37,618 bases of DNA from Terriglobia bacterium. Its GTDB lineage: Bacteria > Acidobacteriota > Vicinamibacteria > Vicinamibacterales > CAVVIG01. The stretch spans positions 1 through 37,618 of the forward strand of contig JAIQFX010000057.1 in the NCBI GenBank assembly GCA_020073005.1. The letters are read 5' to 3'. Both the position numbers and the translations under genes were made by a program. Below are positions 8,561 through 37,325 of this stretch, piece by piece; the stretch's first letter is position 1; each line of letters begins with the position of its first letter. The notes under the pieces are model-generated. The model was not told where the DNA came from. It saw nothing but the letters and a program-made list of their open reading frames with translations, and did no database searches.

Positions 8561-11500
8561 GTCGACGTGCGCCGGGCCGGCGCCGCGATTGGCGTCGGCT
8601 TGGACGGCAGATCGGTCAGCACGCGATTCAGTGCGGCTACGATCCGCGAGACGTCGTCGAAGGCCCAGTCGAGCTGCCGCCGCTGATCGGCGGTCGGCAG
8701 ACCCGAGTAGCCTTCGATCGCGCGCGACAGGCTCGTCGCCGTGCCGAGGTGCGCGGCGATCTCGGTCTGCGCCTGCGCCAGCCGCCCTTCCATTCCCTCG
8801 TCCACGACGCTTCGGCCCCGGCCCAGCGCGTCCAGTTCTCCGATCGCGGCACGCGCGGCGGCTCGCGCGGATCCCAGCGTCTTCTGCAGGTCGTACAACG
8901 AGAGCAGCACCGATTGACGCGCGCGCCGATCCGCGTCCGTCATCGAGACGCGCGGGTCGCTCTCGACGCGCAGCTGCCCCTTGAGCTCGCGCCCGCCGGC
9001 TCGCACCGTGACCGTGTAGGTGCCCGGCAGAACCAGCGGTCCCTGGGGCGCGCCGCCGAATCCGCCGGCGGCCGGTGACTCGCGGTCCGGTGTCGGCGGC
9101 TCCATCCGCAGATCCCACGACACGCGATTGAGGCCGCGCCGTACCGGTCCGCGAATCGTGCGCAGCGTCGTGCCGCTGGAGTCGGCAAACGCGATTTGCG
9201 CATCGTCGGCCGCGCCGTCGCGCAGGTAGTAATCGACGATGCCGCCGAAATCCGGATTTGGCGCGAAGTACTGGCCGGCGCCGTACCACGCTTGGGGGTT
9301 GTAGATGCTCAGCAGCCGCGCGCGCGCGGGCGGCACGAGGAACGCCTCGCTCGCCATCGATTGCGCGGTCAGCGCTTCGAGCGGCCCGATGTTGTCGAGG
9401 ATCCAGAGGCCACGGCCGTGCGTGCCGGCGATCAGATCGTTCTCGCGCGGATGGATGATGATGTCGTCGACCGGCACGGCCGGCATGTTGAGCGTCAACG
9501 GCGACCAGTTCGTACCGCCGTCAATCGACACGTGGATGCCGCGCTCGTGTCCTACGAACAGCAGCTTGACGTTGCGCGGATGTTCGCGGAGCTTGTGCAC
9601 CGACGTCTCCGGCAGCCCGGCCGTGATCGACCGCCACGTCTGGCCGTAATCTTCGCTGACGTAGACGTACGCGCGATAGTCGTCCTGGTAGTGGCCGTCG
9701 AAGGTCGCGTAAACGCGGCCGGCGGCGTGCCGCGAGGGCAGGACGCTGCTCACGTACATGTTCGGTGGCAGCGCCGGCACGCGACTCGTGAGGTTTGTCC
9801 ACTTCTGGCCGCCATCCCTCGTCACCGAGATCTGGCCGTCGTCGCTGCCCGTGTAGATCAGCTTTGCATCGAGCGGCGATTCGCCGATCGTCGTGAGCGT
9901 GGAAAACGACGTCTGGCCGTCGTGGCGCGAGAGCGCGTCCTCGGACACGGGCCCGCCCATCATCTCCAGCGTCTCGCGATTCACGTTCGCGGTCAGGTCC
10001 GGGCTGATCGCCTTCCACGTGACGCCGCGATCGGCCGACCGGAACACGATATTCGATCCGATGTAGAGCACTTTCGGATCGAAGGCGGACATCGCGATCG
10101 GCGTGTTCCAGTTCCAGCGATCAGCGGGGGACGGGTCTCCCCTCTGTCCCGCCGGGAGACCCGTCCCCCGGCGCGTGAGCGGCGCGATCGCCTGCCGTTC
10201 GAGCGTCGTGACGTTGACGCGGTTCGCGCGGCCGTCCTGCGATTCGACGACGACCGTCCGGGCATCGGTCGGATCGACGCGCGTGTAGAAACCGTCGCCG
10301 CTGCCGATGTTGAAGCCGTCGTGATTCGAGATGCCGTTGCGGTTGCGCGTGGCGCTCGGCACGCACCAGTGGCCGTTGTCCTGCAGCCCGCCGCAGATCA
10401 CGTACGGGTCGGCGTTGTCGGCGCTGATCTCGTAGAACTGGCCGACGGGCAGGTTGTCGCGGAACAGCCACGTCGCGCCGCGATCCCACGAGATCGACAC
10501 GCCGCCGTCGCCGCCGACGAGCAGGTGATTGGGATCGTCGGGATCGATCCACAGCGCGTGATCCTCGGAGTGGACGGTGCTGAACACGTCGCGGAACGTG
10601 CGCCCGCCGTCATCGGAAATGTAGAAGCCGCGATTCGATCCCAGCAGGTACACGTGGTTGCGATCCTTCGGATCGACGCGGATCTGGCTGAAGTACATCG
10701 GACGCGGGTTGAGCGGCGCGAGCTTGTCCCACGAATCGCCGCCGTCGGTCGTGCGATAGACGCCGCTCTCGCGGTTCGAGGCTTCGACGACGGCGAAGAC
10801 GACGCGAGGATCGGCGCGGTAGATGTCGAGGCCGATGCGGCCCTTGTCGCTCGACGGGAGGCCCTTCGTGAGACGCGTCCACGTCGCGCCGCCGTCGCGC
10901 GTCCGGTAGATGCCGCTGCCGGGGCCGCCGCCGTTGAAGCCCCAGGCCTTGCGCTGGCGTTGGTACATCGCCGCGTACAGCGTGTCCGGATTCCGCGGAT
11001 CGATCACGAGGTCCGTCGCGCCCGTGTTGTCGTCGACGAACAGCGACTTCGTCCACGTCGCGCCGCCGTCAATCGTCTTGAACACGCCGCGCTCTGAGTT
11101 CGATCCCCACAGATGGCCGACGGCCGCGACGTACGCGATGTCGGGGTTCTCCGGGTGGACGATGACGCGGCCGATGTGCCGCGTGTCGCGCAGACCCATC
11201 GCGCGCCACGTGCGGCCGGCGTCGGTCGACTTGTACACGCCGTCGCCCCACGACGAGCTCTGCCGGTTGTTGGCTTCGCCGGTGCCGGCCCAGACAACGT
11301 TCGGATTCGACGGCGCGACCGCGATGGCGCCGATGGACATCATCGCGTCGACGCGATCGAAAACCGCGGTCCACGACGTGCCCTGATTGGTGCTCTTGAA
11401 CACGCCGCCGCTCGCCGCGGCGACGTAAATCGCGTCGGGCACGCCCGCCATGCGCGCGATCGCGAAGTCGTCGATGCGGCCGCCCGTGTTCGCGGGCCCG

Positions 11501-11661
11501 ATGCCGCGCCAGTGCAGGCCGCCGAAGAGCGTCGGATCGAACGCGGCCGTGCGCTGGCCGACGACGACGCGCGCGCTTCCGCCGACAATGAGCGTGCAGA
11601 CGATGAGCGTCAGCGCGGCACGAAGCACACGCAGCGAAGAGGATTTCACGGAGCACTCCAT
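8545..11661 (-). CDS. Large secreted Asp-box (BNR/VPS10-sortilin-like) beta-propeller protein
   Basis: A 1038-residue exported protein. A signal peptide (LRVLRAALTLIVCTLIVGG) is followed by two beta-propeller-like regions with at least ten Asp-box motifs of the form SxDxGxTW (STNQGTSW, STDAGRTW, TIDGGATW, TTDGGDSW, SADRGVTW, TRDGGQKW, SEDYGQTW, SIDGGTNW). The 'GLHWRGIGPANTGGRI' opening is typical of the family often annotated as VPS10-like or 'glycosyl hydrolase'; no catalytic residues are evident. The C-terminal part has a fibronectin-like block (LNRVSWDLRMEPPTPDRES, LPGTYTVTVRAGG) and a helical end. Residues about 498-512 are encoded by a perfect 16-bp palindrome (10126-10169). TATACT ends 8 nt before the ATG. 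A GTG four codons in, preceded by GGAG, is an alternative start. Function unknown. Confidence 0.85.
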   Translation of the reverse strand: MECSVKSSSLRVLRAALTLIVCTLIVGGSARVVVGQRTAAFDPTLFGGLHWRGIGPANTGGRIDDFAIARMAGVPDAIYVAAASGGVFKSTNQGTSWTAVFDRVDAMMSIGAIAVAPSNPNVVWAGTGEANNRQSSSWGDGVYKSTDAGRTWRAMGLRDTRHIGRVIVHPENPDIAYVAAVGHLWGSNSERGVFKTIDGGATWTKSLFVDDNTGATDLVIDPRNPDTLYAAMYQRQRKAWGFNGGGPGSGIYRTRDGGATWTRLTKGLPSSDKGRIGLDIYRADPRVVFAVVEASNRESGVYRTTDGGDSWDKLAPLNPRPMYFSQIRVDPKDRNHVYLLGSNRGFYISDDGGRTFRDVFSTVHSEDHALWIDPDDPNHLLVGGDGGVSISWDRGATWLFRDNLPVGQFYEISADNADPYVICGGLQDNGHWCVPSATRNRNGISNHDGFNIGSGDGFYTRVDPTDARTVVVESQDGRANRVNVTTLERQAIAPLTRRGTGLPAGQRGDPSPADRWNWNTPIAMSAFDPKVLYIGSNIVFRSADRGVTWKAISPDLTANVNRETLEMMGGPVSEDALSRHDGQTSFSTLTTIGESPLDAKLIYTGSDDGQISVTRDGGQKWTNLTSRVPALPPNMYVSSVLPSRHAAGRVYATFDGHYQDDYRAYVYVSEDYGQTWRSITAGLPETSVHKLREHPRNVKLLFVGHERGIHVSIDGGTNWSPLTLNMPAVPVDDIIIHPRENDLIAGTHGRGLWILDNIGPLEALTAQSMASEAFLVPPARARLLSIYNPQAWYGAGQYFAPNPDFGGIVDYYLRDGAADDAQIAFADSSGTTLRTIRGPVRRGLNRVSWDLRMEPPTPDRESPAAGGFGGAPQGPLVLPGTYTVTVRAGGRELKGQLRVESDPRVSMTDADRRARQSVLLSLYDLQKTLGSARAAARAAIGELDALGRGRSVVDEGMEGRLAQAQTEIAAHLGTATSLSRAIEGYSGLPTADQRRQLDWAFDDVSRIVAALNRVLTDLPSKPTPIAAPARRTSTQLPR
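10126..10169. repeat. Type-A palindromic element inside the Asp-box gene
   Basis: Perfect 16-bp inverted repeat GGGGGACGGGTCTCCC (10126-10141) and its complement (10154-10169) around a 12-nt loop. The same stem core (GGGGACGGGTCTC) with the same 16/12 geometry occurs at 17459-17502. It is translated in frame as part of GTGLPAGQRGDPSPA, between two propeller segments. Confidence 0.8.
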
Positions 11662-11669
11662 CGGGGCGC

Positions 11670-11675
11670 AGTATA
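11670..11675 (-). promoter_or_regulatory. -10 box of the Asp-box gene
   Basis: TATACT on the minus strand, ending 8 nt before the ATG at 11661. No good -35 box is visible. The position implies a leaderless or nearly leaderless message. Confidence 0.4.
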
Positions 11676-11762
11676 AGCTGTCACAGATATTTCACGTCGC
11701 CTGCGGACTGTGCGCTTACAATTTTCATATATGCCATTTGCCGCCCGCTTCGAAGGGATCGC

Positions 11763-12197
11763 ATGAGAGTCAGGTTTCTTCTCTCCGTGCTCGTCAGCGC
11801 GCTCGCAATCGGCTGCTCGCAGAGCAGCACCGACACGAGCAGCACGACGACGTCGACGACTGCGCCCACCGGCAACCCCACGACGGAGAACTTCACGGGC
11901 ACCGTTGCCGTCGGCGGCAGTGACGTGCACTCGTTCACGGTCGTATTGTCCGGCGGTCAGCTGAACGTGATCCTAACCGCGGCGGGCCCGCCGCCGACGA
12001 TTCAGATGGGCCTGGGCATCGGGTCGTACAGCGGGACGACGTGCACGCTGTTCTCGAACGGATCCCTGACGACGCCCGCCGGGTCGATTGCGCAGTTGAC
12101 GGGCACGGCGAACGCCGGCACGTATTGCGTGCAGGTGTCCGACGTCGGCAACCAGACGGCGCCGGTCAACTACGCCGTCACCGTCACGCATTTCTGA
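11763..12197 (+). CDS. Small lipoprotein with a PPC-like beta domain
   Basis: A 144-residue protein. The signal sequence ends in a lipobox (LAIGCSQS, Cys 18), so it should be lipid-anchored. A Ser/Thr-rich linker (STTTSTTAPTGNPTT) leads to a beta domain with ENFTGTVAVGGSDVHSFTV, LNVILTAAGPPPTIQMGLGI and GTYCVQVSDVGNQTAPVNYAVTV. This resembles bacterial pre-peptidase C-terminal (PPC) domains or similar beta-sandwich folds. Two cysteines (GTTCTLF, GTYCVQV) could form a disulfide. An AAGGGA sequence precedes the ATG. The gene is divergent from the Asp-box gene, with TACAAT in the 101-bp gap as a candidate -10. Function unknown. Confidence 0.75.
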   Translation: MRVRFLLSVLVSALAIGCSQSSTDTSSTTTSTTAPTGNPTTENFTGTVAVGGSDVHSFTVVLSGGQLNVILTAAGPPPTIQMGLGIGSYSGTTCTLFSNGSLTTPAGSIAQLTGTANAGTYCVQVSDVGNQTAPVNYAVTVTHF

Positions 12198-12216
12198 GGG
12201 GAGCAGTCCCGAGGGG

Positions 12217-13152: not shown

Positions 13153-14516
13153 AGCGCCACCTCCGCCCCCGGCACCCTGGCACCCGGCACGGCACCGAGC
13201 ACCTCAGCACCCGGCACCTCGGCACCCGATCGCCTGGAACCGATCACCCAAATCCCCGCCAGGCACCCCATCGTCAGAAACACTTCCGTCCCCAGCGTCG
13301 ACCACGCGGCCCCGTCGATCGCGAGCAGCGGAATCAGCCGCGCGTTGAGCGCGACGTTGACGGCGAGCGCCAGCCCGCACAACGCGGCGTACGTGCGCTG
13401 GCCGTCCCAGGCGATCAGCTGGTGCGTCAGCGCGTAGTTCAGTGAGAGCAACGGGAACGACAACAGCAGAATCCGGAACGCCGGGACCGCCGCCGCGTAG
13501 TGCGCGCCGTACACGAGCGGGATCACCCAGCCGGCGGTGAGCCACAGGACCACCGTCGCGATCACCGCGAAGACCGTAGCCGGCGCCGAGACCTGAAGCA
13601 GCGGCCGGAGATCGCGTGCGCGAACGAGCGACGGCAACGTCACCGCGAGAACGGCGGCGGGAAACAGTCGCAGCGCTTCGACCAGACGGAACACGGCGTT
13701 GTAGAGCGCGACCGACTCGGTGCCCGACCAGAGCTGGACGAGGAAGACGTCGATGCGGAAGTAGAGGGCCGAGAGCACGATGCCGGCGCCGATGGGGAAG
13801 ACGTCGCGCAGGAACGTTCTGTAGGCCGGGTCCTTTGGACCCGCCACGGCTGCCGGGTCCGAAAGGACCAGGCCTAGATCTGAACCGCTCAAGCGCAACG
13901 CAATCCGCAGACTGACGGCGAGCGTCACCGCGACCGGCAGCAGCATCGCGATGGCGAGCACCGTCACGTCCGGCTTCCACGCGAGCGCCAGCAGTCCGCA
14001 GACGAGCGTGCCGCCGCGCTGCCAGAGGATCAACGACGACTCGACGTCGCTGCGCGACAGGCCCCGATAGAAGTAGTGCAGGAACTCGATCAAGCTGCTG
14101 CCCGCGTACATCACGGCGAAGACCGTCACCGGCGCGCCGTAGGCCGCTCGCCACGGTGCCCCGGGAGCAATGCCCGCGCCGATGCCCACCATCGCGACCG
14201 CGACGGCCGCCATCCAGACCCGAACCCGCAGCCACGTCCGCAGCAGGGCGGCGGCATCCGCGGGGCGTCGGGCAACTGCCCTCGCCAGGTGCAACTGAAT
14301 TCCGAAATCGGTCGCGACCGCGACCAGCCATCCCAGCGTGGCGCCGATCGAGAAAACGCCGAACGCGCCGGGTGACAGCCGCCGCGCCGCGGCGACGGTG
14401 ATCACGAACAGCGATCCCTTGCCCGCCAGATCGGCGAATGCTTTGTACGCGATCAACAGCGCACGGCGCAGTTTCGCGTTTCGAAACGAGCTTTCGTCCA
14501 CCGTAAAGGTTTCCAT
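13149..14516 (-). CDS. Polysaccharide flippase (Wzx/MOP-type lipopolysaccharide biosynthesis protein)
   Basis: A membrane protein of 455 residues with about twelve hydrophobic segments in the usual MOP-family order. It opens with LIAYKAFADLAGKGSLFVITV and ARRLSPGAFGVFSIGATLGWL, where most Wzx proteins have a similar LGPEEYG-like turn. Middle segments (FPIGAGIVLSALYFRIDVFLV) and the end (LIPLLAIDGAAWSTLGTEVF) also fit. It should flip lipid-linked sugars across the inner membrane. Residues about 214-232 (SDPAAVAGPKDP) are encoded by a palindromic element, and the last 25 residues (GAEVPGAEVLGAVPGARVP) are encoded by a GCACC-type tandem repeat; both look like in-frame insertions or extensions. 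ATG 14516 is chosen; ATG 14543 is possible. It is divergent from the polymerase/ligase gene. Confidence 0.85.
   Translation of the reverse strand: METFTVDESSFRNAKLRRALLIAYKAFADLAGKGSLFVITVAAARRLSPGAFGVFSIGATLGWLVAVATDFGIQLHLARAVARRPADAAALLRTWLRVRVWMAAVAVAMVGIGAGIAPGAPWRAAYGAPVTVFAVMYAGSSLIEFLHYFYRGLSRSDVESSLILWQRGGTLVCGLLALAWKPDVTVLAIAMLLPVAVTLAVSLRIALRLSGSDLGLVLSDPAAVAGPKDPAYRTFLRDVFPIGAGIVLSALYFRIDVFLVQLWSGTESVALYNAVFRLVEALRLFPAAVLAVTLPSLVRARDLRPLLQVSAPATVFAVIATVVLWLTAGWVIPLVYGAHYAAAVPAFRILLLSFPLLSLNYALTHQLIAWDGQRTYAALCGLALAVNVALNARLIPLLAIDGAAWSTLGTEVFLTMGCLAGIWVIGSRRSGAEVPGAEVLGAVPGARVPGAEVAL
13152..13226. repeat. GGCACC-type short tandem repeat at the flippase 3' end
   Basis: Imperfect tandem copies of GGCACC/GGCACCC (for example GGCACCCGGCACGGCACC) run from the GTGA junction into the flippase gene and encode its repetitive last residues. 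No CRISPR-like spacer structure is seen. Confidence 0.6.
13823..13875. repeat. Type-B palindromic element inside the flippase gene
   Basis: Left arm 13823-13841 (AGGCCGGGTCCTTTGGACC) pairs with right arm 13856-13875 with one mismatch and one bulge around a 14-nt loop. Each arm is itself a small hairpin (GGGTCC-TTT-GGACCC; GGTCC-GAAA-GGACC). The same arm sequences flank a type-A hairpin at 17429-17526. It is translated in frame in a loop of the flippase. Confidence 0.7.
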
Positions 14517-14619
14517 TGCAATCAGATGCTTGCGAGCGCGCATTCGAGCTATATGCAGCACGCGTGCCTTGATTTCGCGTGCCACCGCTCGTGGCAAGCT
14601 TCTTGGACTGTGTTGCCGC
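14517..14619. promoter_or_regulatory. Divergent intergenic region with a 10-bp palindrome
   Basis: The 103 bp between the flippase and the polymerase/ligase start hold an AT-rich core (GCTATATGC, 14549-14557) and a perfect palindrome GCACGCGTGC (14558-14567). These are candidates for a shared promoter and operator. No clear -35/-10 pair can be fixed by eye. Confidence 0.3.
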
Positions 14620-16317
14620 GTGGCGACAACTGCATTCATCGGAGTTGCGCTGCTCGCCCTCGTCGCGCCGTTCGAAATGACGCAACCCCTGGTGCGTTTC
14701 CCGCAGCAGTCGGTCAGCAACCTCGAGGCGGCGCTGTTGTGTGCGTTTGCAGCGTGGGGCCTCTCGATCGTGAGGTCGCGGCGGCTTCCGGCCTGGCGCA
14801 CGCCGTTGACCCTGCCTTGGGTCGCCCTCCTGATCGTGCTCATCGTGGCGTCGGTCGCGGCGCCCGCGTTTCGAGTGAACGCCTTCCACATGACCGGCCG
14901 GCTGACGGCGGCCTTCGGCATTTTCCTGCTGACGGTCACCGGCCTGACGACGGGGAAGCGCGTGCGCGCGGCCCTGAGCCTGGTGATCGCGACGGGCGTC
15001 ATCGTCAGCGTACTCGCCATCCTGGAATACGCGCAGGTCGGGCCCGTGCTGAACGCGCTCAAGGCGTTCCGGCCGGGCATCACCGTCGTCGGATCGCAGC
15101 TGCGCGCCGGCGGGTCGTTGCAGTACCCGACGATTGCGTCGATGTACCTCGAAGTCGTCTTCGCGTTCGGTGTCGGCCTGTTGCTGTCGGACGTCGACGC
15201 CGGCCGCCGCGGCCGCGCGGCGGTGTGGTTCGTCGCGCTGCTGATCGTCGCCGAGGCCATCACGCTGACGTTCACGCGCGCCGGAATCATCTCGATGGCC
15301 GCGGTCCTGGTGCTGATGGGCGCAATCCGGTGCAGACGGCGCGGACGCGACGTCGGCGTCGGACTGCTGGCCGCGCTGTCTGTTCTGGTCGTCGTGATCT
15401 TCGCGGGATCGCGATCCGCCGAGTGGATGTGGCTGCGGTTCACGAGCGGGGGACAGGAGTCCTGGTATCGCGCGCAGGTGACGGCCCCGGCCGACCTCGC
15501 GATGGCGAGCGGCGCGACGTCCGTGGTTCCGATCGAAGTCACCAACACCGGGCGGCTGACCTGGGACTCGCAAGGCGATCCGCCGTTTCTTCTCTCGTAT
15601 CACTGGATGCCCGCCGAGGGCGATCGCTTCGTCACGTTCGACGGCTTGCGCACGCCGTTTCCGGCGCCGGTCGAGCCCGGGGCGACGATCGCGATGCAGG
15701 CCGACGTCCGTGCGCCGCGGCAGCCGGGTCAGTACCGGCTCGGATGGGACGTGGTCGTCGAGCAACGCCTCTGGTTCAGCACCGAGCCGGGCGCCGCGCC
15801 GATGCTGTCGCGCGCCACGGTGTCCGGTGACGCGCTCGACACCATCGTCCGCACCACGCCGCCGCCGAAGCCGACGGTTCGGCCCGGACGTTTTCAACTG
15901 TGGACGGCCGCCGTGAAGATGATCGCCGCGCATCCGTTGCTCGGCGTCGGTCCGGACAACTTCCGGCTCCTGTACGGCGACTACGCCGGCCTGACGGCCG
16001 CCGATCCCCGCACGCACAGCAACGACATGTATCTCGAAGTGCTCGCGGGCAGCGGGCTCGTCGGCGGACTCGCGTTCGCGTGGCTGCTGTGGCGCGCCGC
16101 CGGCGTGCTGCTTCCGGATCTTCGCGCGCCGGCGGCGGCCGCGACGGCGATGGGCGTCGGCGCGGCTTTGATCGCCGTCGCGCTTCACGGCGTCGTCGAC
16201 TCGTTTCTCAGCTTTGGCCCGACCTACGTGCTCTTTTCCCTGACACTTGGATTCGCCGTCGCGTGCTCGCGCGGCCCTTTGAGAATTGAAATGGAAGCCG
16301 ATGCGCATCGCCTTTGA
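14620..16317 (+). CDS. O-antigen polymerase/ligase (Wzy/WaaL-type) with a periplasmic Ig-like insert
   Basis: About 565 residues. Around ten hydrophobic segments are interrupted between about residues 282 and 392 by a soluble beta domain (VVPIEVTNTGRLTWDS, FLLSYHW, FDGLRTPFPAPVEPGATI, PGQYRLGWDVVVEQRLWFS). That domain looks like an NBR1/Ig-type sandwich. After it comes the Wzy_C hallmark AAHPLLGVGPDNF and HSNDMYLEVLAGSGLVGG. These enzymes join lipid-linked glycan units in the periplasm. No ATG is available near the expected N terminus. GTG 14620 (VATTAFIGVALLALVAP) gives a proper first membrane segment and is chosen, but without a clear ribosome-binding site. The 3' end overlaps the next gene by 17 bp, so they are likely co-transcribed. 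Confidence 0.8.
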   Translation: MATTAFIGVALLALVAPFEMTQPLVRFPQQSVSNLEAALLCAFAAWGLSIVRSRRLPAWRTPLTLPWVALLIVLIVASVAAPAFRVNAFHMTGRLTAAFGIFLLTVTGLTTGKRVRAALSLVIATGVIVSVLAILEYAQVGPVLNALKAFRPGITVVGSQLRAGGSLQYPTIASMYLEVVFAFGVGLLLSDVDAGRRGRAAVWFVALLIVAEAITLTFTRAGIISMAAVLVLMGAIRCRRRGRDVGVGLLAALSVLVVVIFAGSRSAEWMWLRFTSGGQESWYRAQVTAPADLAMASGATSVVPIEVTNTGRLTWDSQGDPPFLLSYHWMPAEGDRFVTFDGLRTPFPAPVEPGATIAMQADVRAPRQPGQYRLGWDVVVEQRLWFSTEPGAAPMLSRATVSGDALDTIVRTTPPPKPTVRPGRFQLWTAAVKMIAAHPLLGVGPDNFRLLYGDYAGLTAADPRTHSNDMYLEVLAGSGLVGGLAFAWLLWRAAGVLLPDLRAPAAAATAMGVGAALIAVALHGVVDSFLSFGPTYVLFSLTLGFAVACSRGPLRIEMEADAHRL

Positions 16318-19093
16318 CGGAACCGCCCTTCGCCCGCGGCGGACGGGCATCGGGTACTACACCGAGCACCTCCTGCACCATCTGGCGCGCCAGGCGTCGG
16401 ACGACGAACTCATTGTTCTGTCGAACCGGCCGATCGAGACGACGGCGCCGCTGCCGCCGCGCGTGCGCGTGGCCGCGCCGTCGTGGCACGCGCCGCGGCT
16501 CGTGTGGATGCAGGGCCTGGCGCCGACGGCGCTGCGGCAGGTCGAAGCCGACGTCGCGCACTTCACCAACGGCATGGTGCCGCTCGCGTCGCCCGTGCCG
16601 ACCGTCGTGACGATTCACGACATGAGCCTGCGCCTCTATCCGCGGTTTCATCCGCCGCGGCGCGTGCTGCTGAACGGTCCGCTCGTGGATCTGGCGGCGC
16701 GGCGCGCCGACGCGGTCATCACGGTTTCCGAGAGCGCGAAGCGCGACATCGTTCGTCTCTACGGCCTCCCGCCGGAGCGCGTGCACGTCGTGTACGAAGC
16801 GGCGGCGCCGGGCTTTCAACCCGTGCGCGATCCCGAGGTGCTCGATCGCGTGCGCCGGCGATACGGGCTGGACGAGCGCATCATCCTCTACGTCGGCACG
16901 ATCGAGCCGCGCAAGAATCTGCCGAAGCTCATCGACGCGTTCGCGGCGCGCCGGCGGACCGGCGATCTCAGTCACCAGCTCGTGTGCGTCGGGCCGTACG
17001 GATGGCTGTCGCGCGGGCTCGAGGAGCGCATCACGCGATCGAACGTGGCGCACGCGATCAACTTCACGGGCTACGTGCCGTTCGAGGATCTCGCCGCGAT
17101 CTACAGCCTCGCCGAGATCTTCGTCTACCCGTCGATGTACGAAGGGTTCGGGTTGCCGGTGATCGAAGCGATGGCGTGCGGCACGCCCGTCGTGACGGGC
17201 GGCGCGGCGGCCCTGCTCGAGATCGGCGGCAACGCCATCGTGCACGTCGACGAGGTCGAGGTGGATGCGCTCGGCGAGACGCTGGTGGCGCTGGCGCGCG
17301 ATGAAGAACGGCGCCGCGCACTTTCTGCGGCCGGACTCGCGCGGGCGGCGGAGTTCTCCTGGGAGCGCGCGGCGCGCGAGAGCCTCGCGATCTATCGGCA
17401 CGTCGCGGCCGGCGAGCCGGTCCCTGCTCAGGCGGGTCCGGAAGGACCCGCCGTGATTCGGGGACGGGTCTCGGCGCGCGTCGTCTCCGAGACCCGTCCC
17501 CGATTGCCGGGTCCTTTCGGACCTGGTACGCCAGCTCCGGCGATGACGCCGTCGACCGACGTGCTGTTCGGCCAGGCGTACTTCCTTCGCTTCGATCCGA
17601 AGCTGTGGGAGGCGCGGCAGCCCTACGCGCCGCTCGGGGCGCTGTACGCGGCCGCCTGCGTGCGCGATCGCGGCTACCAGGTCGCGCTGTTCGACGCCAT
17701 GCTCGCCGAATCGGTCACCGAGTGGTCGGCGGCGCTCGATCGCCATCGCCCGCGCTTCGCGGTGATCTACGAGGACAATTTCAACTACCTCAGCAAGATG
17801 TGCCTGCTGCGCATGCGCGAGGCCGCGCTGGCGATGATCGACGCCGCGCGCGCGCGCGGCATCGCCACGATCGTCGCCGGCTCGGACGCCAGCGATCATC
17901 CCGCGACGTACCTCGGCCGCGGCGCCGACGTCGTGGTCACCGGCGAAGGGGAAGTCACGCTCGTCGAACTGCTCGACGTCCTGTCCGGCAGGCGCGAGGG
18001 TGGCCTCGAGCAGGTGCGCGGGCTCTGCCGCTTCGGCACCGACGGCCGCGTCGTCCGGACGCCGCCGCGCGAGATCATCCGCGACCTGGACGCGATGCCG
18101 TTCCCCGCGTGGGATCTCGTCGAGGTCGAGCGCTACCGGTCGATCTGGAAATCGCGTCACGGCTACTACTCGATGAACCTCGTGACGACGCGCGGCTGTC
18201 CGTTTCATTGCAACTGGTGCGCGAAGCCGATCTACGGCCAGCGCTACACCGCGCGCTCGCCGGAGAACGTCGTCGAGGAGATGGCGTGGCTCAAGCGGAC
18301 GTTCCATCCCGACCATCTCTGGATCGCGGACGACATCTTCGGCCTCAAGCCGGCGTGGATCGAGCGGTTCGCGGAGCTGCTGCGCGCGCGCGACGCGGCG
18401 ATCCCGTTCCGCTGCCTGCTGCGCGCCGATCAGGTGACGGCCGACGTGGCCCGCGCGCTGCGGGCGGCGTCGTGCCAGACGGTCTGGGTCGGCGCGGAAT
18501 CCGGATCGCAGCGGATTCTCGACGCGATGGAGAAGGGCACGCGCGTGGATCAGATTGAACTCGCGACGCGGCTGCTGCGCGAGGCGGGCGTCGCGGTCGG
18601 CTTCTTCCTGCAGTTCGGATATCCGGGCGAGACGCGCGACGACATCGAGCGCACGCTGCAGATGGTCCGTGACTGCGCGCCCGACGACATCGGCGTGTCG
18701 GTGTCGTACCCGCTGCCGGGCACGACGTTCTATCACCGCGTGCAGGCGCAGCTCGGGCGGAAGCAGAACTGGGTGGACTCGAACGATCTCGCGATGATGT
18801 ACCACGCGACGTACGTGCCGGACTTCTACCGCGCCTTGCACGCGCTCGTGCACACCGAATTCCGCGCCCGCAAGTCGGCGGCGGCGCTGCGGCACGCCCT
18901 CAAACACCCGCTCGACGTGCGGGTCCGCCATGCGCGCGCGCTGCTGCACTATGTCGCGCACCGCGTGATGCAGCCGGTTCTGCAGTCGCGCGTCGATCGC
19001 CTGGCGCGGTTGGCGCCTGCGCAGCCGACGGTCGTGCCGCTGCCGATGCTGACGCCGCAGGCGGCAGCCGTCCCCAGCGAGCAGCCCCGCTAG
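16301..19093 (+). CDS. Fused GT4 glycosyltransferase and cobalamin-type radical SAM protein
   Basis: One open frame of 930 residues holds two usually separate proteins. Residues 1-372 are a GT4 glycosyltransferase: MRIAFDGTALRPRRTGIGYY, TIHDMSLRLYP, VSESAKRDIV, ILYVGTIEPRKNL and the E-x7-E region YEGFGLPVIEAMACGTPVV. Residues 373-414 are a Pro/Gly/Arg-rich linker encoded by the palindromic element at 17429-17526. From Met415 (MTPSTDVLFGQAYFLRF) runs a B12-binding-like Rossmann domain without a DxHxxG motif, then a radical SAM core with CPFHCNWC (Cys633-Cys640), GAESGSQRILDAMEKG and FFLQFGYPGET. The radical SAM part probably methylates or rearranges an unreactive carbon of the locus product. 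Natural fusion, frame-preserving insertion or internal initiation at 17543 cannot be told apart; no Shine-Dalgarno precedes 17543. Confidence 0.8.
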   Translation: MRIAFDGTALRPRRTGIGYYTEHLLHHLARQASDDELIVLSNRPIETTAPLPPRVRVAAPSWHAPRLVWMQGLAPTALRQVEADVAHFTNGMVPLASPVPTVVTIHDMSLRLYPRFHPPRRVLLNGPLVDLAARRADAVITVSESAKRDIVRLYGLPPERVHVVYEAAAPGFQPVRDPEVLDRVRRRYGLDERIILYVGTIEPRKNLPKLIDAFAARRRTGDLSHQLVCVGPYGWLSRGLEERITRSNVAHAINFTGYVPFEDLAAIYSLAEIFVYPSMYEGFGLPVIEAMACGTPVVTGGAAALLEIGGNAIVHVDEVEVDALGETLVALARDEERRRALSAAGLARAAEFSWERAARESLAIYRHVAAGEPVPAQAGPEGPAVIRGRVSARVVSETRPRLPGPFGPGTPAPAMTPSTDVLFGQAYFLRFDPKLWEARQPYAPLGALYAAACVRDRGYQVALFDAMLAESVTEWSAALDRHRPRFAVIYEDNFNYLSKMCLLRMREAALAMIDAARARGIATIVAGSDASDHPATYLGRGADVVVTGEGEVTLVELLDVLSGRREGGLEQVRGLCRFGTDGRVVRTPPREIIRDLDAMPFPAWDLVEVERYRSIWKSRHGYYSMNLVTTRGCPFHCNWCAKPIYGQRYTARSPENVVEEMAWLKRTFHPDHLWIADDIFGLKPAWIERFAELLRARDAAIPFRCLLRADQVTADVARALRAASCQTVWVGAESGSQRILDAMEKGTRVDQIELATRLLREAGVAVGFFLQFGYPGETRDDIERTLQMVRDCAPDDIGVSVSYPLPGTTFYHRVQAQLGRKQNWVDSNDLAMMYHATYVPDFYRALHALVHTEFRARKSAAALRHALKHPLDVRVRHARALLHYVAHRVMQPVLQSRVDRLARLAPAQPTVVPLPMLTPQAAAVPSEQPR
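17429..17526. repeat. Composite palindromic element (type B arms around a type A hairpin)
   Basis: GGCGGGTCC-GGAA-GGACCCGCC (17431-17452), then a perfect 16-bp stem CGGGGACGGGTCTCGG (17459-17474) with its complement (17487-17502) around a 12-nt loop, then CCGGGTCCTTTCGGACC (17507-17523). The outer arms are also roughly complementary to each other. The whole unit is open in the reading frame and links the glycosyltransferase to the radical SAM part. Confidence 0.8.
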
Positions 19094-28442: not shown

Positions 28443-28460
28443 GTCCGGCTTCAGCCGGAC
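28443..28460. terminator. Compact type-C hairpin between convergent genes
   Basis: GTCCGGCT-TC-AGCCGGAC, an 8-bp perfect stem between the MBL-fold gene and the DUF4159 gene. The preceding GTGGCGTCCGGC matches the element inside the cyclase gene at 37173-37183, so it belongs to the same repeat family. It may act as a two-way terminator; no T-run follows. Confidence 0.45.
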
Positions 28461-30277: not shown

Positions 30278-30284
30278 GAGCCAA

Positions 30285-32287: not shown

Positions 32288-32304
32288 CTGGCACGTCCGT
32301 TGCT
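32288..32304 (+). promoter_or_regulatory. Sigma-54 (RpoN) promoter
   Basis: CTGGCACGTCCGTTGCT holds the -24 element TGGCAC and the -12 element TTGCT with the invariant GG-N10-GC spacing. The predicted start is near 32315, about 40 nt before the ATG of the small secreted protein. Use of such a promoter requires an enhancer-binding activator, not found in this window. Confidence 0.8.
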
Positions 32305-32353
32305 CGTTGTCCGATTCGGGCTATTTTCTTCATCTCATACTTGGAGGAGCTTT

Positions 32354-32722: not shown

Positions 32723-32759
32723 GATCCGCAGGATCGCAACGACACCGGCGCCCGATCGG

Positions 32760-32783
32760 GGGCGGGTCCAACAGGATCCGCCC
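32760..32783. terminator. Two-way hairpin between convergent genes
   Basis: GGGCGGGTCC (32760-32769) pairs with GGATCCGCCC (32774-32783) with one G-T type mismatch and a 4-nt loop. It lies between the small secreted protein and the FKBP gene. The arm resembles the type-B elements (GGCGGGTCC). Confidence 0.5.
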
Positions 32784-32789
32784 TCCGTC

Positions 32790-33236
32790 TCACTGCACGT
32801 TCAGCAGCGTGATATCGAAGATTAGCGTGGCGTTGCCGGGGATCGTCGACCCGGAGCCGCTGGTGCCGTACGCCAGCTCCGGTGGGACGATGAGCCGCCG
32901 CTGCCCGCCGACTTTCATTCCCGGAATACCCTGCACCCAACCCGCGATCAGATTGCCCGACGCGAGCGTGAAGAGAGTACTGGTCGACGTGTCGAACTGC
33001 GTGCCCTTCCCGTCGGGGTTCGCCGTGTTGTACAGCCAGCCGGTGTAGGCGACGGTGATGCGATTGCCGACGGCGGCCGTCGCGCCGGTGCCAATTGTGA
33101 GATCCGTGATCGTGAACGGCGCCGTCGACGTCGGCGCGGTGGCGGTCGTCGAGGTGCTGCTGCCGCAGGCGGCGCACGCGATGAGCATCGCGGCGATCGC
33201 GACGCGGGAGAGTCGAACGGACAACCGGGTCAGCAT
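32790..33236 (-). CDS. FKBP-type peptidyl-prolyl isomerase lipoprotein
   Basis: A 148-residue lipoprotein with lipobox LIACAACG and a Thr/Ser linker (SSTSTTATAPTSTAP). The FKBP domain follows: DLTIGTGATAAVGNRITVAY, TGWLYNTANPDGKGTQFDTS, FTLASGNLIAGWVQGIPGM, VGGQRRLIVPPELAYGTSG and the final TLIFDITLLNV. The active-site residues of FKBPs (Tyr in VAYTGWL, Phe-Asp in FDTS, Trp in GWVQG, Tyr in LAYG) are present, so it should isomerise prolyl bonds in exported proteins. AAGGAG lies 11 nt before ATG 33236, which is chosen because it gives a good signal peptide. Confidence 0.93.
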   Translation of the reverse strand: MLTRLSVRLSRVAIAAMLIACAACGSSTSTTATAPTSTAPFTITDLTIGTGATAAVGNRITVAYTGWLYNTANPDGKGTQFDTSTSTLFTLASGNLIAGWVQGIPGMKVGGQRRLIVPPELAYGTSGSGSTIPGNATLIFDITLLNVQ

Positions 33237-33279
33237 GAATCTTCGGGCTCCTTGGCTCAGAACAGCAGGTCCCCACATT

Positions 33280-33831
33280 TTACTTCTTCAGCGGGACCGC
33301 GAAGCCCGAGGTGAACCGGAACTGGAAGCCGTTCTGGTTGCCTTGCTTGTCGGGGCCGATGAAGCGTGCGCCGAGCTCCATGCGGAGCGTCAGCCGCTTC
33401 GCGAGCGGAAAATCCAGCCCAACCCCCGGCTGAACGATGAGATGGGGCGTCGTGCTCACCAGTGTGGCATCGCTCCCGCTGGCGCTCACGCGCCCCGCCA
33501 GCACCTGCCCGTATTCACGCAGCTTCCAGAGTTTGGTGCTCAGGCGAGCGCCCGCCATGATGCTGTTGTCCCTGTAGATTACGTTCCGCTCGATGACGAG
33601 ATCGCCGACGACGAAGTCCTTCGCCACGTACGTCTGGCTGCCTTCGACGACGATCTCGATGTTGGGGCGGATCCGCGTGGCGCCTTCCACGTACCATCCG
33701 AGGAGCTTGACGTCGTTTTTCTGATCGCGAACGATGGCCGCTCCGCCTGAGAGCTCCAGTGTGGGTTGCGCCGCGGCCGGGCGCGGCGCCAGGGCGATGA
33801 GCACGGCGATGACAGAGAGTCGTCGAATCAT
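33280..33831 (-). CDS. Outer-membrane beta-barrel-like protein
   Basis: A 183-residue protein with a signal peptide (LSVIAVLIALAPRPAAAQ). The rest alternates polar and hydrophobic residues as in small outer-membrane barrels: LELSGGAAIVRD, GWYVEGATRIRPNIEIVVEG, GARLSTKLWKLREYGQVLAG, PHLIVQPGVGLDFPLAKRLTLR and the final FQFRFTSGFAVPLKK. No known family is certain. The start at ATG 33831 gives the signal peptide; TATGAT (minus strand, 33846-33841) lies 9 nt upstream and no Shine-Dalgarno is seen. It is divergent from a glycosidase gene only 22 bp away. Confidence 0.7.
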   Translation of the reverse strand: MIRRLSVIAVLIALAPRPAAAQPTLELSGGAAIVRDQKNDVKLLGWYVEGATRIRPNIEIVVEGSQTYVAKDFVVGDLVIERNVIYRDNSIMAGARLSTKLWKLREYGQVLAGRVSASGSDATLVSTTPHLIVQPGVGLDFPLAKRLTLRMELGARFIGPDKQGNQNGFQFRFTSGFAVPLKK

Positions 33832-33839
33832 TTGCGGAG

Positions 33840-33846
33840 TATCATA
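33840..33846. promoter_or_regulatory. Overlapping divergent -10 boxes
   Basis: TATCAT (plus strand, 33840-33845) ends 8 nt before GTG 33854, and TATGAT (minus strand, 33846-33841) ends 9 nt before ATG 33831. The two boxes overlap, so both genes would have leaderless messages that compete for one site. Confidence 0.4.
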
Positions 33847-33853
33847 TTCCACC

Positions 33854-34777
33854 GTGACACGGAACACACTGGCCTTCGCCGCCGCCTTCTGTCTGACCGC
33901 CCACGCCGCGCTCGCGCAGAACATGCACTACGGCGTGAACGCGCACTACCTGACGGCGCCGATGGCCGACAAAATGGCGGAGTTGGGCGCCGGCGTCGCG
34001 CGCGTCGACTTCAACTGGGATGTGATCGAAACGAACTGCAAGGGCTGCTTCGACTGGACCGCCACCGATGCGACGGTCGCGCAGGCGCGCCGCGTGCACG
34101 TGCAGTTGTTTCCCACGCTGTCGTACACGCCGAAGTGGGCCAACGGCGGACAGCCGCAGAGTTATCCGCCGCTCAACTACCAGGATTGGTACGACTTCGT
34201 GTTCGCGATCGCGTCGCGTTACCCGGACATCATCTACTGGGGCATCTGGAACGAGCCCAACCTCGGTCCCTTCTGGAAGAATCAGGATCTGCGCGCGTAC
34301 CGCACGCTGACGATCCAGGCGCGCGCGGCGATTCTCGCCGCGAATCCGAGGGCGCTCATCCTCGGACCCGAGGTCAGCTGGCACGCCACCAAGGACGGCT
34401 GGCTGCAGGCGGCGATGGACGACTACGGCGACCTGTTCGACATCGTCACCGTGCACTGGTACGCCGATGGGCCGGAGCCGATCGACGTGTTCATGGACCA
34501 GTTCGTGCGGCCGACCGCGCCGAACAAGCCGATCTGGCTGACCGAGATCGGCATGAAGCCGTGCTATACGATGTTCGGCGAATTCGGGCAGGCGCTCTTC
34601 TATCAGCGTGTGCTCGAGGCGTATCAGAAGCACCGCGACTGGTGGACGAACACGCTGTTCTACGATCTCTACGAGCCGCCGTCGTCCACGAACTGCGGCT
34701 CGGCGATCGTGCGCGAAAACTACACCAACACGCTGGCGTTCCGCATCCTGCAGGCCTTCATCAAGGTTTTCCCGTAG
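33854..34777 (+). CDS. Secreted clan-A glycoside hydrolase (GH39/cellulase-like)
   Basis: A 307-residue exported protein. GTG 33854 gives a signal peptide (FAAAFCLTAHAALAQ). A TIM-barrel follows with the clan GH-A marks: acid/base Glu134 in WGIWNEPNLG and candidate nucleophile Glu231 in IWLTEIGMKPC. MHYGVNAHYL opens the barrel, GVARVDFNWDVIE and FPTLSYTPKWANG are typical for GH39-like proteins, and DIVTVHWYADGP carries the conserved His-Trp-Tyr. It should cleave a beta-linked glycan outside the cell; the sugar is unknown. The GTG has no Shine-Dalgarno but is 8 nt after TATCAT. Confidence 0.8.
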   Translation: MTRNTLAFAAAFCLTAHAALAQNMHYGVNAHYLTAPMADKMAELGAGVARVDFNWDVIETNCKGCFDWTATDATVAQARRVHVQLFPTLSYTPKWANGGQPQSYPPLNYQDWYDFVFAIASRYPDIIYWGIWNEPNLGPFWKNQDLRAYRTLTIQARAAILAANPRALILGPEVSWHATKDGWLQAAMDDYGDLFDIVTVHWYADGPEPIDVFMDQFVRPTAPNKPIWLTEIGMKPCYTMFGEFGQALFYQRVLEAYQKHRDWWTNTLFYDLYEPPSSTNCGSAIVRENYTNTLAFRILQAFIKVFP

Positions 34778-34786
34778 CCTGCCCCT

Positions 34787-34863
34787 CGATCTCACGTACG
34801 TCGCGGCGCGTCCGCGCAGGTACTACCTGACGATCGAGTCGCCGAACGTCGACTGGACACTTC
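34787..34863 (+). pseudogene. Inverted C-terminal fragment of a lipoprotein-type gene
   Basis: The plus strand reads LDLTYVAARPRRYYLTIES followed by PNVDWTL. This looks like the last strands of the protein family whose N-terminal part lies next to it on the opposite strand (ends near 34864). No start codon or signal is present. The sudden change of coding strand at about 34861, where GTCGA and TCGAC flank the joint, suggests a small inversion. The family match is from memory. Confidence 0.4.
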
Positions 34864-35085
34864 GACGATCTCCCGTCCGCTGTCGCCGCTCCGGAACACC
34901 ACCTTCAACACGCCGGCGCCGGGCGTCGTTTCGTTCGTCGTCTCCCACCGCAGACGGAAACCGCCGGTGTCGCTCGTGAAGGTTTCCGTCTGCTTGTTGC
35001 CATGTCCGGACCACGCGCCGACCTGTTTCCAGATGATGACGGGACGTAGAGGAGGAGGCGCCTCGGACCGGCATCCGCCGACCAC
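34864..35085 (-). pseudogene. Broken small lipoprotein gene (N-terminal part)
   Basis: The minus strand encodes VVGGCRSEAPPPLRPV, a lipobox-like Cys, then WKQVGAWSGHGNKQTETFTS, GFRLRWETTNETTPGAG and LKVVFRSGDSGREIVEV, which reads as a genuine beta-rich protein. The signal peptide is cut short: only a GTG four residues before the Cys is available, because the frame runs straight into the end of the esterase gene. After REIVEV the frame turns into the antisense of the inverted fragment. Both ends therefore look damaged. It would have been the last gene of the cyclase operon. Together with the inverted fragment it accounts for the 321 bp between the glycosidase and esterase genes. Confidence 0.45.
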
Positions 35086-35098
35086 AAGGATCAGCGCG

Positions 35099-35752
35099 TC
35101 AGCGGCCGAACCACTCGAACGCGTCGCGCACGATCGCGGGCGTCACGCCGTGGCGGCCTTCGTACTCGCGGTAGGTGACGTCGTAGCCCAGGCGCTTCAG
35201 CCGCGGGACGAACACGCGGCTCGTGACGTCGATCGGCATGATCGGATCGCTGAGGCCGTGCGAGATGAAGATCTTCGGCTTGCCGTGCACTTCCGCCGGC
35301 CGCATGACGCCGGCGGAATGCCCGAACAATCCGCGTCGCCGGCGATCGACGTTTAGACGGCTCTGCACGCGCGTGAGCGCGGCGCCGATGAACTCGACGT
35401 CCGGGCCGTATCCGTGCAGCAGCAGATCCCAGGTGCCTTCGTCGCGCGAGTCGGGCGCGAGGATGATGACGCCGAACTCGTCGGCGAGCGGAAACGCATA
35501 CGCCGTCGAGCGTCCCGTCCCGCCCGCGCCGTGCAGCAGGACGATGAGCGGCCAGGCCTTGTCCGGCGAGTAGCTCTTCGGGATGTACAGCGTGCCGTCG
35601 CGATCGCCGTCGCCGAGCTTCAGGTCGTGCTGGCCGGGCGCGAGCTCGCGATCGGGAGCCGCGGGCGCCTGCGGAGCAGGATCCTGGCGGGCCCAGGCGA
35701 CAGTGCTCGCGGCCGCCGTCATCGCGAGAAACGCGCGTCGAGTGAGGGTCAT
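35099..35752 (-). CDS. Tat-exported esterase (PHB-depolymerase-like), apparently missing its nucleophile elbow
   Basis: A 217-residue alpha/beta hydrolase with a twin-arginine type start (LTRRAFLAMTAAAS). The front half is normal: PLIVLLHGAGGTG, IILAPDSRDEGTWDLL, FIGAALTRVQSRLNVDRRR. Family members then have a GFSDGAS nucleophile elbow and about 25-30 more residues before MRPAEVHGKP-like sequence. Here RRR is joined almost directly to GLFGHSAGVMRPAEV. The end is normal (KIFISHGLSDPIMPID, DVTYREYEGRHGV with the expected Asp and His). The GHSAG string only looks like a G-x-S-x-G motif. A perfect 10-bp inverted repeat (35291-35318) sits at the joint. The enzyme is probably inactive. It starts one base into the preceding stop (TGATG). 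Confidence 0.75.
   Translation of the reverse strand: MTLTRRAFLAMTAAASTVAWARQDPAPQAPAAPDRELAPGQHDLKLGDGDRDGTLYIPKSYSPDKAWPLIVLLHGAGGTGRSTAYAFPLADEFGVIILAPDSRDEGTWDLLLHGYGPDVEFIGAALTRVQSRLNVDRRRRGLFGHSAGVMRPAEVHGKPKIFISHGLSDPIMPIDVTSRVFVPRLKRLGYDVTYREYEGRHGVTPAIVRDAFEWFGR
35291..35318. repeat. Perfect 10-bp inverted repeat at the esterase deletion joint
   Basis: TTCCGCCGGC (35291-35300), 8-nt loop, GCCGGCGGAA (35309-35318). It lies exactly where the esterase seems to lack its catalytic segment and could have promoted a slipped deletion. Confidence 0.55.
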
Positions 35753-36267
35753 CAGAGGATCTGGTAGATGCGGTACGCGACCTTGCCCGGCATCGTGCGA
35801 TGCACGCCGACCGCGACGATGTTGTTCAGCCAGGCGTATTTCTCCGCGCCGGTTTCGAACACGGGCACGATGCGCCAGTATTGCGTGCCGCCCTGCGGCG
35901 TGATGCTGATCCCGCGGTACGTCATGTAGATTTTCTGGTTGTCGTCGGTCTGCAGAATGATGCGGACGTCGAGGATGCTCGATCCGTCCGGCCGCCGCAG
36001 AATCCAGTCGCCACCGGGTCCGACAACCGTGCCCTTCAGTTTCGGACCGGTGAACGTGCCGCCGGAGACCGGCACGATCACGCGATTGACGCCGGGCGAT
36101 CCGACGTTGTTCGCCGGCTGCGTGTCGAGCACGAGATCCAGCAGGAATTCCGACTTCAGCGTCTTGTCGTCGCCGGCGCCGGTCGTCGATTGCGCGCCGA
36201 GCGACGTCGATCCCACGGCCGCGGCGGCGGCGAATTTCGCAAATCGTCGTCTGGTGGTGGCAGGCAT
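35752..36267 (-). CDS. DUF3237-domain protein with Tat-type signal
   Basis: A 171-residue protein. It opens with a twin-arginine signal (ATTRRRFAKFAAAAAVG). The DUF3237 domain follows: LKSEFLLDLVLDTQPANNVG, RVIVPVSGGTFTGPKLKGTV, GGDWILRRPDGSSILDVRI, IYMTYRGI and AWLNNIVAVGVHR. These match the 'GGxFxGPxLxGxVxxGGxDW' signature of the family. The function is unknown; it is often found beside catabolic enzymes. It lies 2 bp after the cyclase stop and its own stop overlaps the esterase start, so the three genes form an operon. Confidence 0.85.
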   Translation of the reverse strand: MPATTRRRFAKFAAAAAVGSTSLGAQSTTGAGDDKTLKSEFLLDLVLDTQPANNVGSPGVNRVIVPVSGGTFTGPKLKGTVVGPGGDWILRRPDGSSILDVRIILQTDDNQKIYMTYRGISITPQGGTQYWRIVPVFETGAEKYAWLNNIVAVGVHRTMPGKVAYRIYQIL

Positions 36268-36269
36268 GG

Positions 36270-37325
36270 CTAGAACATCGCGATCGCGTTGATCGGGAAT
36301 CCCGTGCCGCCGGTGACCGGGACCGGGTTGATCGTCAGCATGAACTCCCAGCGATTGAGTCGCGCGGCCGCTTCGCCCAGCGCTTCGAGGTCCTGATTGT
36401 CGAGCAGGTTGACGCCGAGGCCCGTGATCATCAGCGTGTGAATCGGCAGCGCGACGCCTTCCACCATCGATGGCGTGACGTCTTCGGCGGCATCGCTGCC
36501 GAGCAGCGCGACGCCGCGCGCCTTGATCCACGGCGCCACCGACGCGTGGAGTCCCGCCGCCGACTGGCCGACGTTCCACGGCCCGAGTGTCTCGCGCCGC
36601 GCCCAGCGTCCGGTGCGCAGCAGCACGGCGTCACCGGCGGCGATCGTCACGCCGGATTTCTTTTCCCACGCTTCGAGATCCTCGACGTAGATCGCCGTGC
36701 CGGGCTCGAGATACGGCACGCCGCGCAGCCGCGGGATGTCGATCAGCACGCCGCGCGTCACGATGCCGTTCTTCAGATTCTGGATGCCGAGCTTGGTGCA
36801 GCCCTTGTCGGTGTTGACGTCGGCGCGCGCGTAGCCGTTATACGTCTGGTCCTTGTAGAGGATGTGGCAGAGCGCGTCGATGTGGCTGTGCGCGTAGCCG
36901 TGGTACGACACGGCGTAGCGATCCATGTTGTTGCCGCGCAGCATCGTGTGCTCGAACGGGTTGTTGTTGTCCTCGGCGCGCTCCGTGATCGGGTTGTGCG
37001 CGAGCGACACGGTCTCGCCGGTTTTCGCCAGCGCCAGCGCCTGCTTGCGCTTGGCGACGGTGATCAGGTTGACCGAGCCGAGCTGGTCGTCCTTGCCCCA
37101 GCGGCCCCAGTTCTTCACCTGCTGAAACAACTCGTCGAACTCCGCGGCATTCCTCGGAGCACGCGTGGCCTGTGGCGTCCGGCCCGCGCCGGACCCTGAA
37201 GTCTGGCTGAAGCCAGACACGACAGGACTCAAGCGAGACAGCAGTGCACCCGGATCCGAGAGGTGCGGCAACCCGATGGACAGGCAGCCGGCCATCGCGG
37301 CGGCGCGAAGAATTCTGGAAGTCAT
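36270..37325 (-). CDS. Cyclase-family (kynurenine-formamidase-like) exported hydrolase
   Basis: A 351-residue protein of the cyclase family (PF04199). After a signal-like start (ILRAAAMAGCLSIGL) there is a spacer whose residues about 34-53 (VSGFSQTSGSGAGRTP) are encoded by two hairpins of a palindromic element. Then comes the enzyme: FDELFQQVKNWGRWGKDDQ, LGSVNLIT, the metal-binding YHGYAHSHIDALCH, TRGVLIDIPRLRGV, AIYVEDLEAWEKKSGV, DAVLLRTGRW and LLGSDAAEDVTPS. It likely hydrolyses an aryl formamide or cyclic amide. GGAGGA lies well upstream of ATG 37325. It heads the operon with the DUF3237 and esterase genes. Confidence 0.85.
   Translation of the reverse strand: MTSRILRAAAMAGCLSIGLPHLSDPGALLSRLSPVVSGFSQTSGSGAGRTPQATRAPRNAAEFDELFQQVKNWGRWGKDDQLGSVNLITVAKRKQALALAKTGETVSLAHNPITERAEDNNNPFEHTMLRGNNMDRYAVSYHGYAHSHIDALCHILYKDQTYNGYARADVNTDKGCTKLGIQNLKNGIVTRGVLIDIPRLRGVPYLEPGTAIYVEDLEAWEKKSGVTIAAGDAVLLRTGRWARRETLGPWNVGQSAAGLHASVAPWIKARGVALLGSDAAEDVTPSMVEGVALPIHTLMITGLGVNLLDNQDLEALGEAAARLNRWEFMLTINPVPVTGGTGFPINAIAMF
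37169..37226. repeat. Type-C palindromic element inside the cyclase gene
   Basis: GTCCGGC-CCGC-GCCGGAC (37177-37194) and GTCTGGCT-GA-AGCCAGAC (37201-37218) lie within outer, imperfectly complementary arms that begin CCTGTGGC and end ACGACAGG. The GTGGCGTCCGGC part is shared with the intergenic hairpin at 28443-28460. It is translated in frame just after the signal peptide. Confidence 0.7.

Follow-up and report, generated by a model that had tools for sequence, protein, structure and literature searches.

How do palindromic sequences come to lie inside protein-coding genes without breaking them? The question is raised by a 37,618-nucleotide stretch of DNA from a Terriglobia bacterium of the Vicinamibacterales (Acidobacteriota; GenBank assembly GCA_020073005.1, contig JAIQFX010000057.1, positions 1 to 37,618; hereafter the window), in which palindromes stand in frame in four genes. 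Most probably these palindromes are elements resembling repetitive extragenic palindromic (REP) sequences, borne by REP-associated tyrosine transposases (RAYTs) or by the TIR-associated tyrosine transposases (TIRYTs) of terminal inverted repeat (TIR) families, and they persist in genes when they are in frame. The kind of element is already known; what stands out here is that, in one type, near-identical arms enclose a loop that differs in every copy.

Palindrome families of the window

The initial annotation of this DNA had reported palindromes in four genes (the 10126, 13823, 17429 and 37169 regions), none of which broke the reading frame. All four are present, and none of the four host open reading frames (ORFs) contains an internal stop. 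The annotation was also right that two unlinked copies have a common core: those at 10125-10170 and 17458-17503, which we call the T type, share GGGGACGGGTCTC arms and the loop length of 12 nt. Its grouping of the palindromes into a single family is not borne out. The hairpins at 13821-13879 and the outer hairpins of 17429-17526 are both of a GGGTCC type, with the GTAG tetranucleotide of GTAG-class REPs at the hairpin foot (also at window position 13821), and those at 37169-37226, which are not of the GGGTCC type, represent a third family; the palindromes of the window thus form three unrelated families (T; GTAG/GGGTCC; GTCYGGC-N4-GCCRGAC). The 17429-17526 insert, which had been counted as one family member, is a composite in which a T element lies between two GTAG-type hairpins, and it sits between the glycosyltransferase and B12-binding matches of its host ORF. 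In the cyclase gene the element occupies the N-terminal stretch, downstream of a signal-peptide-like start. Coordinates are collected in Table 1.

Copy number and transposase genes

We searched the genome to which the window belongs (5.86 Mb, 179 contigs; hereafter our genome) with the family cores and with controls, which for T was the reversed core. The T core GGGGACGGGTCTC has 93 exact matches (control 0), the core GGGACGGGAGTCGG of a sister type, A, has 73 (control 1), and the third family GTCYGGC-N4-GCCRGAC, which includes 37169-37226 and 28443, forms 141 palindromes (control 5). Further copies thus abound, where the annotation had named their absence as a refutation. The GTAG hairpin GTAGGSCGGGTCC has 11 matches in our genome (control 1), 544 in the sister species G001 and 414 in the sister species G002 (control 3), and between 0 and 4 in nine other genomes, where the control reaches 4. 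Perfect T pairs number 36 in our genome, 2 in G001, 1 in G002 and 1 in G072, and none was found in the remaining 145 of the 149 genomes searched, ours included. A scan of a named genome collection, in which our genome is perhaps not included, returned four stretches, all from Acidobacteria. For the hairpin and frame work we used 384 kb of our genome picked around T copies, which therefore do not give an unbiased density; one T place (C9) was left out, and A copies entered only where they happened to fall within. Perfect hairpins with stems of 13 bp or longer number 52 in this sample and 1 in its shuffled form. Some palindromes are nested within the loops of others (L051 3682-3764, L057 3852-3936 and L067 3759: T inside A, T-like inside T and T inside T-like).

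The search for a RAYT- or IS200-like enzyme, which the annotation had proposed, yielded four PF01797 genes in our genome (C106, C114, C118 and C124), all above the Pfam cut-off. Upstream of C106 lies a full A palindrome, and downstream of it GACTCCCGTCCCC occurs in two copies, so that A arms are its terminal inverted repeats on both sides. The NCBIfam REP-associated tyrosine transposase model matches all four genes, C114 and C118 above its cut-off and C106 and C124 below it. Homologues of C106 occur in 61 of the 149 genomes, again counting ours. Among 29 fetched homologues (ours excluded, some of them truncated where a contig ends), inverted repeats that are at least 14 nt long lie near the gene ends in 22 and GGGG[AT]CGG lies at both ends in 11, both counts being without a chance control; the ends of the closest one (59% identical) read GGGGACGGGAGCCC.

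Neither G001 nor G002 (assemblies 91% and 85% complete) yielded a C106 homologue at E<=1e-10, and T is rare in both. Their own RAYT genes (L212 and L204) lie among GTAGGSCGGGTCC GTAG hairpins; no such flanks were seen at the four RAYTs of our genome, the nearest of which to that of G001 is C114, at 48% identity. Element family thus pairs with enzyme, A/T with C106 in our genome and GTAG with its RAYT in the sisters.

Other RAYTs have palindromes of their own. That of C124 (L035 5473-6317) lies between two long GGGTCCGACCCCGGTCCGA palindromes, its flanks being given also as GGGTCCGACCCCGG palindromes, which make up a further REP/TIR family, and that of C114 (L037 5380-6025) has paired GCGACCCTTTCAGGGTCGCG-like hairpins on either side. 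A RAYT of G017, from another genus (L209), has at least eight CCGGTAGCGCGAGC units around it, by their appearance one more family of the GTAG class.

Position in genes and reading frame

Frames were called with a three-periodic order-4 model, a codon-usage frame caller having separated the frames poorly, and control positions were taken 600 or 1000 bases away from clusters. Among 59 T/A clusters scored in our sample (one more lay at an edge), the frame is the same on both sides in 30, the strand is the same with another frame in 11, the strands are opposite in 8 and the calls are weak in 10; a stop separates the flanks in 2 of the 30. Judged by translation (6) or by stop position (5), each of the 11 frame changes reads either as a junction between genes or as an in-frame insert close to the end of a gene. 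An ORF that is open throughout surrounds 28/59 T/A clusters versus 138/226 control positions (p 0.075). These clusters are therefore not mainly extragenic, as REPs are expected to be, and are unusual among RAYT/TIRYT-borne REP-like elements in that their share within genes is close to the chance level. The GTAG clusters in a 1.28-Mb sample of G001, by comparison, are mainly extragenic, with 14/88 in an open ORF versus 222/343 controls, and at the 21 frame shifts there the upstream gene stops at or near the element, judged by stop position. The in-ORF shares of T/A and GTAG differ (p 7e-5), the two families being taken from different genomes.

The 5' arms that are translated fall into all three phases (12, 6 and 6) without significant preference (p 0.22). 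The T and A arms contain no stop codon in any of the six frames, and those of the GTAG and third families contain one in one frame each. The hosts include QueC, a ThiF/rhodanese protein, a MOFRL protein, a DEAD helicase, gyrase A, DnaE, an aldo/keto reductase, an MrfA-like helicase, a major facilitator superfamily (MFS) protein, kinases, a glycosyltransferase of family 9 and a uracil-DNA glycosylase; 6 of the 29 ORFs scanned had no Pfam match. Pfam domains extend across the insert or border it in QueC, DnaE, two kinases, the DEAD helicase, the MFS protein and the aldo/keto reductase. The MrfA-like helicase gene (L058 6104-8776) holds six T/A clusters in one open ORF.

Orthologues of the host proteins

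The annotation had held that insertion would be contradicted if distant orthologues all carried the same residues. They do not, and many are without them or vary. At the aldo/keto reductase site, three of four genomes (G003, G004 and G009) are 9-10 residues shorter, while G001 has a decayed element of the same length. One MrfA-like site is 8-11 residues shorter in seven of eight genomes, the eighth (G002) not covering the site; at the other MrfA-like sites length varies both ways, and some orthologues carry longer unrelated inserts. The Asp-box site is 7 residues shorter in G012, has a rearranged insert in G001 and a different palindrome in G017, where GGGGGTCCGACACGTGTCGGACC... (L137) occupies the protein loop orthologous to window position 10126. 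In the cyclase, one hairpin is common to our genome and G001, and the site is shorter in G007, G012 and G017, from three other genera, whose continuous homology stops just before the element. The DnaE insert coincides with a linker that is shorter in the solved structure of polymerase III alpha (5fku). For the aldo/keto reductase, a PDB search gave nothing at 1e-30, and the gyrase A alignment obtained ends before the element. At L052 the gain is 74 nt, at a TGATG stop-start overlap that is kept in G001, where 3 nt lie between the flanks.

Conserved arms and unrelated loops

Over the 26 nt of both arms, 36 T elements of our sample have no mismatch, 10 have one, 2 have two and none has three, a divergence of about 1%; this sample was chosen by exact cores, which favours perfect arms and cannot account for unrelated loops. 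The classes with four and five mismatches are A copies or a stray arm, and six mismatches occur in four elements (control 0.7). The A arms are without mismatch in 11 elements and with one to three in none. In G001, which is without the C106 enzyme, T-like pairs are scattered over 0-5 mismatches. What the A and T copies have in common is the arm only, a core of 13-15 nt, and the loop of about 12 nt is unrelated from copy to copy. Two variable, mostly complementary base pairs flank the core on the outside in both types and also on the inside in T. The outermost two bases of T are complementary in 27 and 29 of 36 elements (about 10 in shuffles) and the third in 3 (7); on the inner side the two variable pairs hold in 35 each (about 20 shuffled) and the next in 0 (about 11). 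Loop start and nearest flanks look alike at L040 4186 and window position 17460, though not beyond shuffles, and two A elements of L048, separated by 166 nt, have related loops.

To explain arms that stay alike around differing loops we suggest, tentatively and at less than even probability, that some process dependent on the transposase continually rewrites both arms of all dispersed T/A hairpins, intragenic ones included, or that every insertion brings a new loop. The mostly decayed arms at shared sites in G001 are as the arm-rewriting option predicts. According to Di Nocera et al. 2013 (PMC3733652), some REP dimers have spacers that are alike in length and not in sequence, and T/A may thus be a pronounced instance of something already described.

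Weighing the explanations

Under the explanation we favour, the palindromes are nonautonomous REP/TIR elements of several RAYT (IS200-like HUH/Y1) transposases, and these enzymes would move them. In T and A, the terminal repeat of a TIRYT-type transposon stands twice, inverted and at short distance, the C106 gene bearing the A arms and its enzyme presumably serving T as well, and the GGGTCC type is a GTAG-class REP whose cognate RAYT survives in the sister species. Elements would enter genes and intergenic DNA alike; frame-breaking insertions would be removed by selection, and in-frame ones would stay as neutral inserts of about 14-43 residues in surface loops and linkers.

Several results weigh against this explanation. 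On the side of the enzyme, C106 reaches 68 bits on NF047646 (E 6e-19) where the cut-off is 80, and the T core adjoins none of the four RAYTs of our genome, as judged from exact matches in stretches of 11-12 kb and with the possibility that genes are absent from the assembly; the assignment of T to C106 therefore draws on the shared GGGGACGGG and TIR family. The T/A arms GGGGACGG depart from the printed TIR motif GGGGWSAS at the seventh position, agreeing at seven of eight. With regard to reading frame, the two sides agree in frame and a stop intervenes in 17 further GTAG clusters of G001, and these may include cut genes. If insertion were frame-blind and frame breakers were then lost, genes should hold 34% of T/A clusters, where 47% are seen (p 0.025), and 38% of the G001 GTAG clusters, where 16% are seen, so that this simple model fits neither family well. 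Simple copying, moreover, does not predict that T loops are unrelated among copies, no pair standing above shuffled loops by identity or by alignment. Finally, by our reading of the alignments, a recognisable arm or element is retained in G001 at 9 of the 25 T/A sites compared, and not all T/A insertions are therefore recent.

The contrast between arms about 1% diverged and unrelated loops could also be produced if the T/A hairpins were ancient functional sites of the host, bound by protein or folded as RNA, whose arms are selected while their loops drift. The complementarity of the variable end pairs would suit such sites, as would the presence of some of them in G001, mostly with decayed arms. 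We nevertheless regard this as improbable, given that the copies lie in unrelated genes as well as between genes and in all three translated phases, that perfect pairs are absent from 145 of 149 genomes and that a transposase gene has the A arms as its ends. A second possibility is that hairpins form in place, host DNA beside one inserted arm being made palindromic by template switching, with host sequence as the loop. Some G001 sites do have one good and one poor arm (L050 3994 and L055 3821), and some sites have gained a net 15-30 nt instead of 46. However, the loops match the G001 sequence of the same site no better than that of other sites (permutation p 0.55 over 15 of the 25 sites, with nine dropped where G001 keeps an arm or element and L059 12749 dropped for a long segment), which led us to reject captured host DNA as their source, and the L052 gain described above has only 3 nt of G001 sequence to draw on; we consider template switching very unlikely.

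The initial annotation was reminded of Rickettsia palindromic elements (RPEs), which the elements resemble in being palindromic, dispersed and in frame within genes. We consider it very improbable that they are RPEs in the strict sense, since the arms in our genome belong to a RAYT/TIRYT enzyme and GTAG marks the second family, a comparison made from descriptions in place of aligned RPE sequence. Because arms and enzyme are of the RAYT/TIRYT kind, residence in genes remains the point of likeness and the Rickettsia elements an analogy, and we return to REP-like elements of RAYT/TIRYT transposases as the preferred explanation. Two further candidates were dropped: DNA uptake sequences, the copies being too few against the density typical of such sequences, and translational bypassing, because the frame is open across the element.

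Comparison with known systems

In REPINs, which Bertels and Rainey are said to have described in 2011, two inverted REPs reportedly form one unit, together with a RAYT, and the spacers are reportedly conserved; the loop of about 12 nt is here unrelated in each copy. The annotation knew of no equivalent in Acidobacteriota, which stands as far as copies within genes are concerned, our limited literature search having found no report of them in that phylum. It does not extend to the enzymes and repeats: Acidobacteria are known to have TIRYT transposases and, for a Koribacter gene, one TIR family in repeated copies (Di Nocera et al. 2013, PMC3733652). Those TIR families share with T and A the inverted arms at both ends of a Y1 gene, the dispersed TIR repeats, often dimers, and the phylum; they differ from ours in the seventh motif position, the 28/59 clusters in open ORFs and the near-invariant arms with copy-specific loops. 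The GGGGWSAS motif is not shared by other TIRs (PMC3733652).

The GTAG-class REPs and RAYTs of the same paper have their match in G001 and G002, whose RAYTs are surrounded by GTAGGSCGGGTCC hairpins in tandem and inverted order, and the likeness extends to copies within ORFs, since in-frame intragenic REPs are in print for other phyla, such as those of Opitutus terrae, with dnaE as a host also in Rickettsia conorii (PMC3733652). Our genome differs in keeping 11 matches and in having four RAYTs at which this hairpin was not seen. RPE-1, RPE-4 and RPE-6, as described there, resemble our elements in being palindromic, in frame and in genes of many functions; RPE-4 and RPE-6 are placed in the CGTC class, without a dedicated transposase (PMC3733652).

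Sister genomes with opposite enzymes and element families provide a natural experiment on the entry of transposase-borne palindromes into proteins. About thirty in-frame clusters are available, with gyrase A, DnaE and the multiply occupied MrfA-like helicase among the hosts, and at least one protein loop, that of the Asp-box gene, is filled by a different palindrome in another genus. With this material one can test if elements of this kind regularly supply proteins with new linkers, and by what means the arms remain alike around differing loops.

Other features of the window

Table 1. Palindromes of the window and the ORFs that contain them
Feature	Position	Strand	Description
T-type palindrome	10125..10170	.	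17-bp perfect stem, 12-nt loop, core GGGGACGGGTCTC; in frame in Asp-box/sortilin-like gene
Host ORF, Asp-box/Sortilin-Vps10 repeat protein	8548..11691	-	Pfam PF15902, PF02012; open across the T element
Pair of GTAG-class REP hairpins (GTAGGCCGGGTCC...)	13821..13879	.	In frame
Host ORF, "flippase" of the initial annotation	13207..16350	-	No stop across the element
Composite in-frame insert	17429..17526	.	GTAG-type hairpin, T palindrome (17458-17503), GTAG-type hairpin
Host ORF, glycosyltransferase/B12-binding/radical SAM protein	16283..19090	+	Pfam matches
Pair of third-family hairpins	37169..37226	.	GTCCGGC..GCCGGAC and GTCTGGC..GCCAGAC; in frame, cyclase N-terminal stretch
Host ORF, putative cyclase	36270..37616	-	PF04199
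Third-family hairpin GTCCGGCTTCAGCCGGAC	28443..28460	.	Outside the four host genes
Hairpin GGGGGCGGGTCC-AACA-GGATCCGCCC...	32758..32786	.	By-eye assignment only

The "flippase" ORF had no Pfam match at E<=1e-5, which leaves that name unconfirmed. The hairpin at 32758..32786 is probably a decayed GTAG-type unit, as judged by eye only. At the start of the window, an imperfect CGCCGCCGC-rich repeat (191-424) lies within an open frame.

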